64,000 nucleotides of DNA from Arthonia radiata. Taxonomy: Eukaryota; Ascomycota; Arthoniomycetes; Arthoniales; Arthoniaceae. Below are positions 23,536 through 56,572 of this stretch, one piece after another. The notes beneath the pieces were generated by a model, which saw only the letters and a list, made by a program, of their open reading frames with translations, was not told where the DNA came from and ran no database searches. Made by a program: the position numbers and the translations under genes. Where the stretch lies: assembly GCA_002989075.1 (NCBI GenBank), contig PSQN01000012.1:1624480-1688479 (forward strand), in the 5' to 3' direction. How positions within the stretch are numbered: position 1 is the stretch's first letter; each line of letters begins with the position of its first letter.

Positions 23536-23825
23536 ATTGTTACTTCCCCTCTTGCTGCGCTTTGTGCCGAGCAATCTCTTCGACAGGCCGGATGTATGAC
23601 ATCTTGTTTGCGATGGACGCCGTCATATTGTCCCCATAGGTCACGACGTAGTTGTGCATATGCAGACCAGAAAGCAGTCGCATCGCCAATTTTTTGCTGG
23701 GAAGGATCTTCCGTCAAAGACTATGGACATGAGCTAACAGCCTCCGCAGCTTCTCACGTCTGGTGTCACATCTCGTGTGCAGCAACTGAGCTGCTGGCGT
23801 TGCTCCGAAAGAGCTTCTCTTAAGC

Positions 23826-24773
23826 ATGCAGCTCATGACACGAAGGCTCGGAAGAGCTCGCTGTGCTTTCCGAGGTCAAGTCGCAAGAGCGCCGTTTCAC
23901 AGTCACGTTCAGCACAAGCAGCGCGCAGACATTGTCGAGGAAGAAAGTGGGTTTGCAGTAGCTTGCACTGCTTCTCTCCCTGCTTCACCGCTACCTCCTG
24001 CCGCCAATGAGGATCCCATTTATGTGCAACAGACAATCTAAGGCTATCATGCGACAACGTTTGCCGAATCTGAGCGATCCAGTAACCGTGGAATAGCAGC
24101 GCGACCTGTTAACAAGAGAGATGCTGGTAGCTCGTCTTCATCTGATTTGTTGGATAGCGAACAGACTCCGCGCCCAACGAAGAAGCCGCGCCAGGGTTTG
24201 CCACAGAACAAACCGAGCGCGTTGAAGTGTATGCCAGCGGCGGTAAAGATGATGTCGATGCTAAGAACAGGAAACGACTTACTCAGTGGGAGTGGCGGCT
24301 TCACAGCCCGCTAGATGATGTCTCCTATGCAATCAGAGCAGCAAGCCAACGTTGAGTCACCATCATCCTCAGACGACGGTGAAGACCAGATATCGTCGGC
24401 GATCGTGCTTTAACGCGAGTTTCGATAAACGATGGCAGCGGCGCAACTCCCGAGAACCACCTTACGATCAAGCAACTGCTGCGCAAGACCATCCGCGACA
24501 AAACCCTGAAGCACCTTGGACCCGGACCATTGGAGCGTATAAACAAGGTAGTCATGCGGAAGGTCACATACAAGTGCCTGAAGAATCGTGTGGGAAGTAG
24601 AAAACAGGGTGAAGGTCACTACTCTAGGTGTGCCTTGCGATGTATGCAAGAAGAAAAAGATGCCTTGCGTGCAGAAAAGCTATCGGAGCGGGACCTACGT
24701 CTTGTGGTTCCTGGCCGGGGGAGAGAGGAAGGGTCTGACTATTGAGGACGTTTGCTATGGGACTATGCAATGA
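23826..24773 (+). pseudogene. Family B copy B3, broken
   Basis: This is recognised only by comparison with the two longer copies at 25241 and 38805. In shifting frames it shows a Ser/Asp/Pro/Lys-rich middle (about 24054-24315), then a NDGSGATPEN segment (about 24428), then TYKCLKNRVG (about 24567) and finally GVPCDVCKKKKMPCVQK followed by ERKGLTIEDVCY (24630-24760). The last block matches GIVCDACKRKKEPCVQK plus EREGLTVQDVGYW of copy B2. Several frame changes and stops prevent one product, and the coiled-coil N-terminus is not visible. The 5' limit is approximate. Confidence 0.6.
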
Positions 24774-25240: not shown

Positions 25241-26629
25241 CTAGCTATGAGGATACCAGTATCCCGCATCCGTCTCCGTCAATCCTTGCCGCAAGTCCTC
25301 CGGCATGGGGACATTGACCCATCTGTCGCATTTGCGATGCTTCTGACAACACGGGATGTCCCCCTTCATACAGTGGTCACATGTACGGCCAACTTCGTCT
25401 TCGGTCAGAGAGTAGCTCATCCCGCCTCGAGCCTTGCGTTTTAGACATGAGCCGTGTTTGTTGGTCATGACATTGCCTTCTAAGATGCTCTCTTTCACGT
25501 TTCCATATACCTCCTTGATCTTGTCCAGATTTTCTGCGCATGGCATTGTGGTCATGGCTGGGGCATTTCTCGCCGATTCGCCCTTCTGTCGAATATAGCC
25601 GCCCTCATTGAGGAGGATATTCATGGTAGTCCGATCCTCTTTGAGACGCTTTGGTGCAGGCTCTCGTGTGGAAGACATCGCATTGCTTCCTCTCCGATCA
25701 CCTGTGCTCTCTGGTGACGCATTGAGATCGCCGTCATCGCCGTCAATTGCCAAGGCTCTCTTGCCACCAAGCGTCCGCTTGAACATGCTCGTAGCAGGTC
25801 CTGAGACTGCTGGCGAACGGCTAGCCGCTTGCCCACTGCGGGGGCTACTCGGCGTCATGGATGACTGATCTAGGAGCCGAGAGAAGAACTGAGGTCTATC
25901 CCTCGACCCAAAGGGCATCTTTTGAGAAGATCCCGCTGTTGCTTGGATGTATGCAGCCATGTCATAGTTTGGCACTGCCTCCAGCTGACTGACTCTTGCC
26001 TCGGCCTGTTCCAATTTATGTTCGAGGTCTTGGTTCCTCTTCTTGCTAATCGTCAACTGAGATTCGAGTTCATCATCTTGCCTAATCTTAGTTTCGAGCT
26101 CCTCGATGTAGATTTCATCTGACGCCTTCTGACGCTGGAGCTGTTCCTCCTTAGTCTGACTCTCAGCTAGTTGTGCGCTGAGGTGGCTTGTCCGACGTTG
26201 AACGTGGGCATCGATATCGGCATTGAGGCGATTCATTTGTGATCTGAGGTCACTTGTCTGCCGCTTAACGTCAGCATCCACGTCAGCTCTGAGAAGCTCT
26301 ACTTGGGATCTGAGGCTACGCGTTTGAAGCTCAATTATGGCATTACGGTCAGCCTTCTGCCGCTCCATTTGTGATCTGAGGTCACATGTCCGACGCTCGA
26401 CTGCAGCATCGGTGTCAGCTTTCAGACGCTCCATTTGTGATCTGAGGTCACACGTCTTGCGCTCGATTGCGGCGTCAAGGTCAGCCTGTTGACGCTTCAA
26501 TTCTGACTTGAGGTCATCATTTTCACGCTTGAGGCTACTCGCTGCCTCTTGGGCGGCTTCAAAGGCGCTCGCATTGGAAGCAAGCTGCTTCTCTTGTTGC
26601 AGAAGCTCAGCAAAGTTTGAGTCAGCCAT
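25241..26629 (-). CDS. Family B copy B1: coiled-coil protein with C-terminal Cys module
   Basis: Single exon, 462 aa from ATG 26629; the frame is open further upstream but without ATG. Residues 1-47 are helical. Residues about 48-157 are five 22-residue repeats built on A-D-x-D-A-x-V-x-R-x-T-x-D-L-R-S-Q-M, then a long coiled coil to about 230. A Ser/Pro/Arg-rich middle follows (KRLKEDRTT). The C-terminus has SCLKRKARGG, then CDHCMKGDIPCCQKHRKC, then LRQGLTETDAGYWY. The C-x2-C-x6-C piece resembles half of a Zn2Cys6 cluster. With the upstream Cys it makes four conserved cysteines, shared with B2 and B3. No known function. It looks intact and is the best whole member of the family here. Confidence 0.7.
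   Translation of the reverse strand: MADSNFAELLQQEKQLASNASAFEAAQEAASSLKRENDDLKSELKRQQADLDAAIERKTCDLRSQMERLKADTDAAVERRTCDLRSQMERQKADRNAIIELQTRSLRSQVELLRADVDADVKRQTSDLRSQMNRLNADIDAHVQRRTSHLSAQLAESQTKEEQLQRQKASDEIYIEELETKIRQDDELESQLTISKKRNQDLEHKLEQAEARVSQLEAVPNYDMAAYIQATAGSSQKMPFGSRDRPQFFSRLLDQSSMTPSSPRSGQAASRSPAVSGPATSMFKRTLGGKRALAIDGDDGDLNASPESTGDRRGSNAMSSTREPAPKRLKEDRTTMNILLNEGGYIRQKGESARNAPAMTTMPCAENLDKIKEVYGNVKESILEGNVMTNKHGSCLKRKARGGMSYSLTEDEVGRTCDHCMKGDIPCCQKHRKCDRWVNVPMPEDLRQGLTETDAGYWYPHS
26159..26488 (-). repeat. Five tandem 66-nt coding repeats
   Basis: The units encode 22-residue coiled-coil repeats in family B copy B1. Units 1, 2 and 4 share DLRSQM(E/N)R. Units 3 and 5 have drifted (SLRSQVELL, HLSAQLAES). 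The unit of 22 residues (three heptads plus one) would keep one face of a coiled coil nearly in register. Confidence 0.8.
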
Positions 26630-53391: not shown

Positions 53392-56300
53392 ATGAAAAAG
53401 TACAGTGTAGGCGAAATGTCATCCGTCTCAGCAGACGCCCCACGCTCCCGCGATGACTTCGAAGTGGCCATCATCTGCGCCTTGACTCACGAGGCCGACG
53501 CTGTCATCGCCCTCTTTGACGAGCTTTGGGACGACAACACGCACGAGCTGAGACCCAGCCTTAGCGAGGATAAGAATGAATACACCTTCGGCCGCATTGG
53601 GCTGCACGAGGTCGTCGTCGTAGTACTTCCGGGTATGGGCAAGAAAGGAGCAAGCAGCGTGGTTGCTGCGATGCACCCAACTTTTCGTAACATACAACTC
53701 AGCCTCGTGGTTGGCGTGTGCGCGGTTGCACCGTACACCGAAGACGGTTCTGAGGTAAGCTGCACAGCATCCACACATTCTTTCCTGTGGCTTTCGACCC
53801 ATCGCCAGGCAGCTAGCGCGCTGGCTTTGTCTTACGACGCTTTGTCTCAGCCGGAACTTCAGAAGAGGCTGTGCTGATATCTTGTTTCTAGGTAAGTCTC
53901 ACAGCAGCCACACACCTCGTTCTGTGCCTTGAAAGTCGTTGTCAGGCAGCTAGCGCACTGGCGCTACCCCCTTAGCCTTTGTTTAGAACGTGAAAGACCC
54001 TGGGAAGATACTGTGCTGATACTTTCCCCCTAGGTAAGTCTTAGAGCCTTAAGACACTCCGTTCTATTGCCTAGCAACTTTTGCCAGGCAGCCAGCGCGC
54101 TGGCGTTACCTCTAGAAACTCTATTTAGTACATTGAATGACCTTTAGAAGTTACTTTACTTACACTCTATTCTTAGGTACGTTTCAGAGCAGCCGAACAT
54201 TTAGTTCTGTGCCTAAAAAATTATTGTTAGGCAGCTGACGCGCTGGCGCTACTCTATAGCCCTTTATTACAACATAACCCAACTCCAGAAGACGGTGTGC
54301 TGACAATTCCTTCTAGGTCCTCCTTGGCGATGTGGTCATCAGCGCCTACGTCATTCAGTCAGACCTGGGCCGTCAATACGAAGATACATTCCTAAGAAAG
54401 GACACACTGGAGGATAATCTAGCGAGACCGCCACAAGAGATACAGAGGCTGTTGAAGCGGCTCGAGCTTGAGCATCATCACGAGCACCTTGGAGACCGAA
54501 CGCGAGGCTTCGCGAAGGAACTTCAGTCCCGAAAGAGCATCTATGCCTATCCAGGGACGAAATATGATCACCTTTACGCGACCAATTATACTCATATGCA
54601 CCGAGCCCCGGAGACATGTATTGAGTGCAAAGAAGTGAAGGGTGCGCCGGACCATGCCTGTGCGGGGGCAAAGTCGACCTCCTGTGCAGACCTTGGCTGT
54701 GAAGCGAGCCAGCTCATCCACCGAAAACGGCTCTCTGAGTCGAACAACGGCGATTGTCATGCCGCTATTTGGTTCGGACGCTTCGCATCTGGAGATCAAG
54801 TCATCAAGTCTGCCGCCCACCGAGAGGAGCTAGGTAAAAAGGAGAAAGTCATCGGTTTCGAAATGGAAGGCAGTGGTGCTTGGGAGCATTTTCCAACTAT
54901 CATTATCAAGAGCGGATGTGATTACGCTGATAGTCACAAAAGTAAGATGTGGCAGAAGCATTGTGCTGGAAATGCTGCGGCTTGCACGAAGGCGTTCCTT
55001 CAAGAATGGCGCAGGAAAGACAACGTGCGGGGCAGGGGAGAAATCTCACGTTAGTAAACCCTTGTATGCCGATGACCGTAGAAAAGTGCAAGATGGTGAC
55101 ACTCGCGGGTATTTATGTCAAATCTGGCTAACGTCCGGTCATAGCTGTCCTTGATCGCGCGCAAAGCGTTGCGAGTAGAGCTCCACGACCTCGCGTACCG
55201 CCTCCACGTTCCAGCAATCCCCTCTTCCTCGGCCGGGCGACTGAGCTGGCTAAGATCGAACAGCAGCTGTTTACCACAGATTCAACTGAACATCAAATGC
55301 TCAGAGAGCTGACCATCCTCGTCATACAAGGCTTGGGAGGCAGCGGCAAGAGTGAGCTATGCCTCCGCTATCTAAAGGTGCACGAACGGAGGTATGTGAT
55401 CATACTTAGTAGCGATAATATCCCAGTAGCGTCCTGTCTGATACTGTCACAGCTATTGGGCTATCTTCTGGATCGATGGTAGCACTGATGAGAGCCTTGT
55501 CTCAGGGTTTAAGTGCATCGCAACGCAACTCGGCCTTGCCGGCGATGATGTTGCCAAAGTTCGCGATAACCTAGAAGCACGAGAGCAGGGCTGGCTCTTG
55601 ATCGTCGATAATGCCGATGATCCAGAGCTCGACCTAGCTCCTTACTTCCCTGACCAAGGCGTTGGCCATATTCTTATCACTACTCGGAACCCAGAGCTAG
55701 GTATATTTCAGACCGGGTCGACATTGCGCCTCGAAGGTCTTGCTGAGAACGATGCTCTCGCGTTACTCTTTAAGGCAGCCGGGACAGAAGCCCCAGAACA
55801 GGCGTCGCTGACTATGGGCGCCAAAGACATTATAAAGACACTAGACTTTCATGCTCTTGCTGTCATTCAAGCTGGCGCATATATCCGAAAGACTCACGAT
55901 CTGAATGGCTACGTTAGGGTTTTCAACGAACAGAGAAAGCGCATTCTCGAGTATTGCGCTCCACAATCCCGAGCTCAGTATGGCAGCGTGTATGCAACGT
56001 TTGAGGTTTCCGCGTCGAGGTTACGGCAGGAGGCTGATGAGCGGCAACAGCGATCCGCCGCCGACGCTCTGGATCTCCTCCAACTCTTTGCTTTTATGGG
56101 CTCGCGGGGTCCATTTGAACGCATCTTTAGTGATGCAAAGGACTTCGCTATAGAGTGTACCGATTCCACAGGACCCGCCACTAACGCGGACGATGTCGCT
56201 AACATGGGAGATGTAGAGTTTTTCGCTCGGTTTCTCCCTCGGAGGTATTCCTCCCTGCTAACTCCCCTAGCCTACGCAACGAACGACCTTTATGGAAAGT

Positions 56301-56572
56301 ATCGATGGCGCGAGGCGTGTGATAAATTACGTCAATACTCTATGTTGTCATTTGACAATGACGACGATGGGGAAGAAGTTCTGACATTCCACCCATTAAT
56401 CCTAGCATGGGCACGAGACCGACAATCAAAGGATAGCTACGTGCAATCGTGGCTGTCTAGCGCTGGGACGATTTTCCTTAGCAGTCGTGGATTGTGGGAG
56501 CTGGATCGTCTTCTTTACCGGCTCGGAACTCATGCCCGCGCCTGCTTCGGTCACGTGCCGAAGGACTGGTGA
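53392..56572 (+). CDS. NLR-like receptor: nucleoside phosphorylase domain plus NB-ARC
   Basis: Model: join(53392..53754, 54317..55049, 55145..55391, 55453..56572), 820 aa, all phases closing. Residues ~24-365 form a PNP/UDP-phosphorylase-like domain (FEVAIICALTHEADAVIALF, VVVLPGMGKKGASSVVAAM, LLGDVVISAYV, KVIGFEMEGSGAWEHFP). The NB-ARC follows: P-loop QGLGGSGKSEL (~428), Walker B GWLLIVDNADD (~494), HILITTRNP, FHALAVIQAGAY and an MHD-like FHPLILAWARDR (~759). In fungal NLRs the PNP part is the N-terminal effector and the NB-ARC the ATP switch; proposed roles are non-self recognition and immunity. The product stops soon after the MHD motif with no TPR, ankyrin or WD repeats, so the usual sensor half is missing. 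Intron 1 is a four-unit tandem array. Confidence 0.88.
53755..54316 (+). repeat. Four tandem copies of one intron
   Basis: Units are 53755-53891 (137 nt), 53892-54033 (142), 54034-54176 (143) and 54177-54316 (140). Each starts with a donor (GTAAGC, GTAAGT, GTAAGT, GTACGT) and ends with an acceptor (TTCTAG, CCCTAG, TCTTAG, TTCTAG). Each carries the core AGGCAGC(T/C)(A/G)(A/G)CGC(G/A)CTGGC in the middle. Units 1, 2 and 4 have TGCTGA(T/C) as a likely branch site; unit 3 has ACTTACAC. Junctions are AG|GT with nothing between. Removing all 562 nt joins GSE to VLLGDV in phase 0, as the PNP family needs. Confidence 0.93.

Follow-up and report, generated by a model that had tools for sequence, protein, structure and literature searches.

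The intron at positions 53755-54316 of the window (the whole 64,000-nt stretch of Arthonia radiata DNA that was analyzed) is most plausibly a run of four introners, i.e., mobile spliceosomal introns, that entered one site serially, a reading to which we assign a probability of about 0.82. It is a single intron of a gene coding for a PNP/NB-ARC protein and is composed of four abutting GT...AG units of 137, 142, 143, and 140 nt, with zero exon bases between them as read from the sequence. The array opens with GAG|GTAAGC (53754/53755) and closes with TAG|GTC (54316/54317). Its three inner junctions, viz., TAG|GTAAGT (53891/53892), TAG|GTAAGT (54033/54034), and TAG|GTACGT (54176/54177), all retain both a donor and an acceptor, and they bear out the AG|GT abutment without an exon base that an earlier note on this DNA had claimed. 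Each unit combines a donor, a common core (GGCAGC..GCGCNCTGGC), and, shortly 5' of the acceptor, a branch-like motif (CTGAY, but CTTAC in unit 3). The units, together with a further copy in their vicinity, are listed here with their best matches, given as fractional identity (L-numbers denote the genomic stretches retrieved in the searches described below):

53755..53891, + strand: introner unit 1, family A, 137 nt; best match 0.90, to L011 1995-2133
53892..54033, + strand: introner unit 2, family A, 142 nt; best match 0.89, to the second unit of L009
54034..54176, + strand: introner unit 3, family A, 143 nt; best match 0.76, to L031
54177..54316, + strand: introner unit 4, family A, 140 nt; best match 0.76, to L025
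53248..53384, - strand: decayed family-A copy; model match E 1e-27; best match 0.79, to L039

The decayed copy lies antisense to the PNP/NB-ARC gene, just 5' of its start, and its GT and AG ends are gone. Elsewhere in the window, positions 23734-23867 give a weak family-A match (E 6.5e-4 in one model search, 5e-5 in another), and positions 26234-26516 hold a tandem repeat of about four copies with a 66-nt period, i.e., a multiple of 3.

Full-length alignment of the four units yields pairwise identities of 57-68%, with scores 7.7-13.6 standard deviations over those of 500 mononucleotide shuffles; scores so far over the shuffles indicate that the units are homologous. Repeat families of three and four copies were additionally found in the same register as the units. 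The earlier note had proposed this alignment, naming a lack of homology as a result that would speak against its reading, and had described the feature as a quadruplicated intron. Four homologous units are indeed present, but they are not copies of one another, as a neighbor is never the best match of a unit.

The reading frame and the protein domains support the view that the host would remove the array as a whole. The gene was modeled as follows:

53416..53754, + strand: exon 1 of the PNP/NB-ARC (NLR-like) gene, ending in GAG, phase 0 (sequence, frame, Pfam)
54317..55049, + strand: exon 2, beginning with GTC (frame, Pfam; homologs contiguous across the site)
55050..55144, + strand: predicted ordinary intron 2, 95 nt (GT...AG ends; frame open after joining)
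55145..55391, + strand: predicted exon 3 (joined frame)
55392..55452, + strand: predicted ordinary intron 3, 61 nt (joined frame)
55453..56572, + strand: predicted exon 4 up to the stop, with an NB-ARC match in exons 3 and 4 (frame, Pfam)

When 53755-54316 and the two predicted ordinary introns are removed, the gene (53416-56572) has an open frame for a predicted PNP/NB-ARC protein of 812 aa, in which the Pfam domain PNP_UDP_1 occupies residues 17-134 and is continuous over the junction at residue 113/114. Five homologs with 70-83% identity are contiguous at the array site, with source genes that could be either intronless or spliced gene models; the nearest homolog named to an organism comes from Coniocarpon cinnabarinum (Arthoniomycetes; 70% identity). 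We also tried nine partial removals of the array, taking in contiguous unit combinations only as opposed to non-adjacent ones, and each of them meets a stop codon between residues 130 and 153, no more than ~40 codons from the site; hence, among the contiguous removals tried, only that of the full array leaves the protein open. The earlier note was right that complete removal gives the same mRNA whatever its order. It had further suggested that the array may act as a retention or length switch on an immune-type receptor, an idea with which the NLR-like gene and the truncation of the protein by each contiguous partial removal tried would accord. However, the frame tests and the host genes examined gave no evidence for such a switch, with all nine partial products running into an early stop, and the same kind of array is present in unrelated genes; we consider the idea scarcely credible.

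The units belong to a family dispersed through the genome. In the 33.5 Mb searched (16 contigs), the four-unit array has at least 48 matches, many of which are one unit long and many of which end at unit edges, and a 21-base core pattern with up to three mismatches has 147 matches (the best 100 of these were listed) as against 4 for the reversed control. This search for the core had been suggested in the earlier note, and its outcome agrees with the surmise made there that the core may be a mobile introner. The main count covers 67 stretches, i.e., the window and 66 further ones (L009-L074); seven small stretches (L075-L081) were read separately, outside the counts. Units were classified with three family models, namely A (~142 nt), B (~157 nt), and C (308 nt), and 161 units were kept; family B was assigned with a five-seed model, a separate iterated B model having drifted into family A. 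We thus find what characterizes introners in general, namely similar introns at many positions in unrelated host genes of one genome, with element ends that coincide with splice sites as judged from the sequence and the reading frame.

Exact abutment of units is recurrent. There are 67 adjacent same-strand unit pairs with a gap of 60 nt or less, 38 of which keep AG|GT intact where the units meet; gaps between adjacent units have their mode at 0 and no values from 37 to 194. The remaining 29 close pairs comprise 11 in L013, nine that belong to two types of fused dimer, an overlap artefact (L012), and eight others. The 38 intact unit-unit junctions, a few of which depend on partial matches (L012, the first pair of L013, and L058), are spread over 32 of the 67 stretches, window included, a proportion that overstates the frequency of arrays because the query for L009-L046 was the four-unit array itself and junction patterns led to several of L067-L074. 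Among the stretches taken from the core list, best matches first (L047-L066), the core copy lies in an intact array in five of 20 (L049, L051, L059, L062, and L063), or six with L058, a stretch that had been extended to include a junction hit. Genome-wide searches of both strands with junction patterns gave 10, 26, and 15 hits versus 0, 2, and 2, respectively, for the reversed controls. In thirteen of the 38 intact cases the two units are of different families (A|B in six, A|C in five, C|A and B|A in one each), two of the thirteen (L012 and L058) depending on partial matches. The family-A unit is the 5' one in 11 of these pairs (two-sided sign test ~0.02, the two partial-match pairs included), which we take only as a hint. 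A scan of the stretches for nested insertions found no unit inside another unit.

Several further configurations were noted in these regions. By eye, L080 has a pair of units from an additional introner family (GTAAGTCTACAGC...GCGCTCTAG) in direct abutment, and L078 and L081 have further mixed junctions. At ~1793-1796 of L066 (- strand), just one G stands between two introners (TTAG|G|GTAAG), possibly a one-base exon or a shifted site. The 5' flank of an introner ends in CTAG at L014 2036 and in L069 (- strand); in L069 the end of an ordinary-looking intron lies 8 nt 5' of the introner, and introners may also abut ordinary introns.

The relationships among neighboring units bear on how the arrays arose. 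Across 23 neighboring family-A pairs (20 with an intact junction and three without), the mean identity is 0.635, the same value as for all pairs of 102 family-A units, and the neighbor is the best match of either unit in none of the 23. That neighbors are no more alike than random pairs, along with the mixing of families, which tandem duplication by itself could not produce, points to serial insertion rather than tandem duplication. The earlier note had raised intron growth by tandem duplication at AGGT, and one intron copied three times in place, whether by such an AGGT-type event or by unequal crossing-over, would be in keeping with the head-to-tail arrangement and similar lengths of the units; moreover, one dimer and the fused dimers considered below show that block copying can occur. 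Yet the window units are 57-68% alike, whereas units 1 and 2 match dispersed copies at 90% and 89% (units 3 and 4 are at most 76% like units elsewhere), and different families abut. We therefore reject tandem duplication, given the equality of the neighbor and all-pair identities, and consider it highly improbable and largely refuted for the window array, where it is out unless it was ancient and was followed by gene conversion by dispersed copies. As to the order of the serial insertions, the best-match identities of the A|A pairs listed give no clear bias, despite the closer matches of window units 1 and 2.

Other arrays can likewise be read as introns of the genes in which they lie. Of 94 chains, 73 have usable ends, and these include 33 with more than one unit, counting fused dimers. 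Both 120-nt flanks have an open frame in 25 of the 33; the other eight are without it in at least one flank. Removal from the first donor to the last acceptor joins the open frame in 23 of the 25 and fails in two, as against 13 of 25 for either shift of the acceptor by +1 or +2; for all chains, 41 of 49 join in frame versus 24 and 25 with shifted acceptors. Ten of the 23 joined products made were tested, and in eight a Pfam domain extends across the junction, viz., ABC2_membrane (L049, where it passes the junction by four residues only), MFS_1, Ank_2, DUF1776, SLX1_C, Fung_rhodopsin, GH28, and UQ_con (whose match surrounds a fused dimer). In the L010 product the domains are all downstream of the junction, and the L039 product has no Pfam match. 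The arrangement is thus not restricted to the NLR gene in which the earlier note described it: other arrays occur in ABC-transporter, MFS, ankyrin, SLX1, DUF1776, rhodopsin-like, and GH28 genes. Specificity for immune receptors is accordingly rejected, as these genes have unrelated domains.

Target preference was studied in the 41 sites whose joined frame is open. At -1 the exon has G in 36 of these and at +1 it has G in 30, with T second after the intron in 22; a G|G target is present in 26 and G|GT in only 17, and a strict G|GT target is rejected on these counts. We propose that introners would mostly insert between two G bases, the second of them often followed by T. As insertion brings a GT at the 5' end and an AG at the 3' end, the edges of an introner would themselves resemble the target, its 5' edge reading G|GT and many 3' edges reading AG|G or AG|GT. 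A further introner could then insert precisely at such a boundary, so that the array would lengthen with no exon bases added; the host would remove it either from the first donor to the last acceptor or unit by unit, with complete routes leading to the same mRNA. Serial introner insertion at splice junctions is perhaps RNA-mediated, and we infer that the insertion step might proceed by reverse splicing into unspliced RNA, followed by copying back.

Within the units GG is frequent (~4.9 per family-A unit) and GGT is scarce (73 in 114 units versus 233 in mononucleotide shuffles); with GG so common, the scarcity of internal GGT is an insufficient reason for the missing nested insertions. The looser G|G target weakens one argument and the missing nested cases gain in weight, which leaves our confidence in this scheme where it stood. 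If introners landed at random on the ~197,000 exonic GGT sites, 150-500 copies would give a rough expectation of 0.1-1.3 boundary hits, on the assumptions of a half-exonic genome and a GGT target. The excess of boundary insertions must reflect targeted insertion, better survival beside an existing intron, or both. An insertion beside an existing intron is probably less harmful than one into an exon, so that survival bias may account for part or all of the boundary excess; survival selection could also purge nested insertions, and the target preference could mirror differences in survival among insertions instead of a choice of landing site.

Insertion might alternatively be DNA-mediated, i.e., transposon-like, with a short G-rich target, in which case abutment would follow only from the target rule and the survival of harmless insertions. 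A short target rule by itself predicts some boundary insertions, and 78.5% of introner families outside ascomycetes are reported to have TSDs, TIRs, or both, whereas the ascomycete families are reported to have neither (available part of PMC9860276). In our 41 sites, the repeat across the two edges has a mean of 2.61 nt versus 2.50 nt for re-paired edges (a value reached by 42 of 2000 re-pairings), which is compatible with DNA-mediated insertion through a possible target duplication of 1-4 nt overlapping the splice sites. Against this, flank-to-flank repeats of 3-6 nt are found in none of the 41 sites and an edge repeat of more than 5 nt in just one, so that long target-site duplications are in general absent from them; moreover, with ~197,000 exonic GGT sites on the half-exon assumption, boundaries would rarely be hit without a strong survival filter. 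We regard DNA-mediated insertion as a serious possibility, albeit one clearly short of even odds. Ascomycete introner families are reported without DNA-transposon marks (available part of PMC9860276), and for fungal introners reverse splicing is so far a proposal; the repeated occurrence of introners at introner boundaries, with no nested case in our scan, offers many records of the insertion rule.

Recursive splicing at the inner sites, which the earlier note had raised, is possible. A functional and selected version of it, in which the inner AG|GT sequences would be zero-length-exon ratchet points needed for a long intron, accords with the donors and acceptors kept at all three inner window junctions and with the fact that 562 nt may be long for a single step where the ordinary introns are predicted at 95 and 61 nt. 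However, branch-motif mismatches per site amount to 0.107 at inner (~24/224) and 0.061 at outer sites (30/490; Fisher p 0.046, a rough and weak figure as the units are related), so that the inner branch sites are, if anything, less conserved. Loss of inner junctions has also happened repeatedly, and some of the long introns thus formed lie in genes that join in frame. The less conserved inner branch sites and the repeated loss of inner junctions suggest that the inner sites are perhaps not strictly needed, though they may still be used, and we judge selected recursive splicing unlikely. Dozens of natural zero-length-exon introns in a fungus make the choice between one-step and stepwise splicing directly testable.

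Introners, fungal ILEs, stwintrons, and ratchet points are already known kinds of element. The closest precedent comes from the introner elements of Micromonas, which in the available text of PMC3879977 are repeat introns at new positions with 'nested or merged' cases, and from the merged cases its authors infer mobility at the stage of the unspliced transcript. Merged introners occur there as here, but that text speaks of 'several' such cases, whereas our set has 38 exact AG|GT junctions, includes mixed families, and contains fused dimers present at several places; conversely, nested cases are reported there and none came up in our nested-insertion scan. The fungal ILEs, as far as the accessible part of Collemare 2015 (PMC4457414) describes them, are likewise dispersed similar spliceosomal introns of an ascomycete with no long target-site duplication. 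ILEs are described as having a stable secondary structure, and neighboring ones are reported in that paper to lie 145-626 bp apart, whereas the present units abut. Folding of 77 single family-A units gave no sign of a stable RNA fold relative to shuffles (mean z -0.09, with three below -2); window units 1-4 have z values of 0.68, 1.13, -2.01, and 0.32, and the whole 562-nt array has -2.54. A stable RNA hairpin as a common feature is thus rejected, with single units folding no better than shuffles. Since this structural feature of the ILEs is lacking, we file the units as introners in the general sense and not under a published ILE family, the separation being by description rather than by sequence comparison.

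The [D1,2] stwintrons of Hypoxylaceae (available parts of PMC9024468 and PMC8469720) are likewise repeated complex introns, composed of two U2 introns, and in their proliferated form are a neighboring case of a spreading composite intron. In a stwintron the outer donor is split after its first base and two reactions are needed, whereas in the present array no site is split, donors and acceptors are complete, and one-step removal would also work; among 117 stwintrons, none is reported with both an AG upstream and a GT downstream (available part of PMC9024468). The ratchet points of Drosophila, as presented in part of PMC8605326, share the juxtaposed AG|GT and the zero-length exon, but they are plentiful in long introns and were assayed, while those considered here are fungal, would derive from mobile introns, and are known by sequence. 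The tandem duplication in the potato RdRp gene (part of PMC4974935) is, like our case, a repeat-based intron gain; unlike it, the present units are not duplicates of their neighbors. Our searches of the open-licence literature turned up no report of fungal introners in recurrent abutting arrays or of fused fungal introners that are dispersed, and no papers on introners of Arthoniomycetes.

Arrays can lose their inner junctions, and some fused products seem to have been copied elsewhere in one piece. Family C (308 nt) is found at 14 places, about half of them full-length, and looks like a fused dimer, with family-A units aligning within its first 101 and last ~145 positions; it stands alone at L049 and L076. 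A fused B-A dimer occurs at six loci (62-75% alike), and a fused A-A dimer with a linker at three (61-85% alike). Another dimer is shared by L010 and L023 at 85% identity over 285 nt; no similarity was detected between the 200-nt flanks, and the inner junction of the dimer reads TTAG|GTACGT in L023 and is lost in L010. The dimer was seemingly moved or copied as a block, and hence not every junction stands for an insertion event of its own. In the scheme of serial insertion, the inner junctions would later mutate, turning the array into one longer intron, and some of the fused dimers might then come to be found at several places. We tentatively extend this to a full cycle, to which we would give only a little less than even odds, whereby introners enter pre-mRNA at splice junctions by reverse splicing, the arrays extend themselves, and dimers with decayed junctions become new spreading families. 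If true, it would be a cycle that makes long and composite introns, as well as natural ratchet points, out of mobile introns, and the arrangements found here look like a series leading from a fresh array via a fused composite intron to a dispersed composite family. From 1745 of L013 into L075 (C10:1219844 to ~1223260), with no clear flanking exon, extends a same-strand pile of A, B, and C units of ~3.4 kb, in which the units are nearly contiguous and the junctions mostly decayed.
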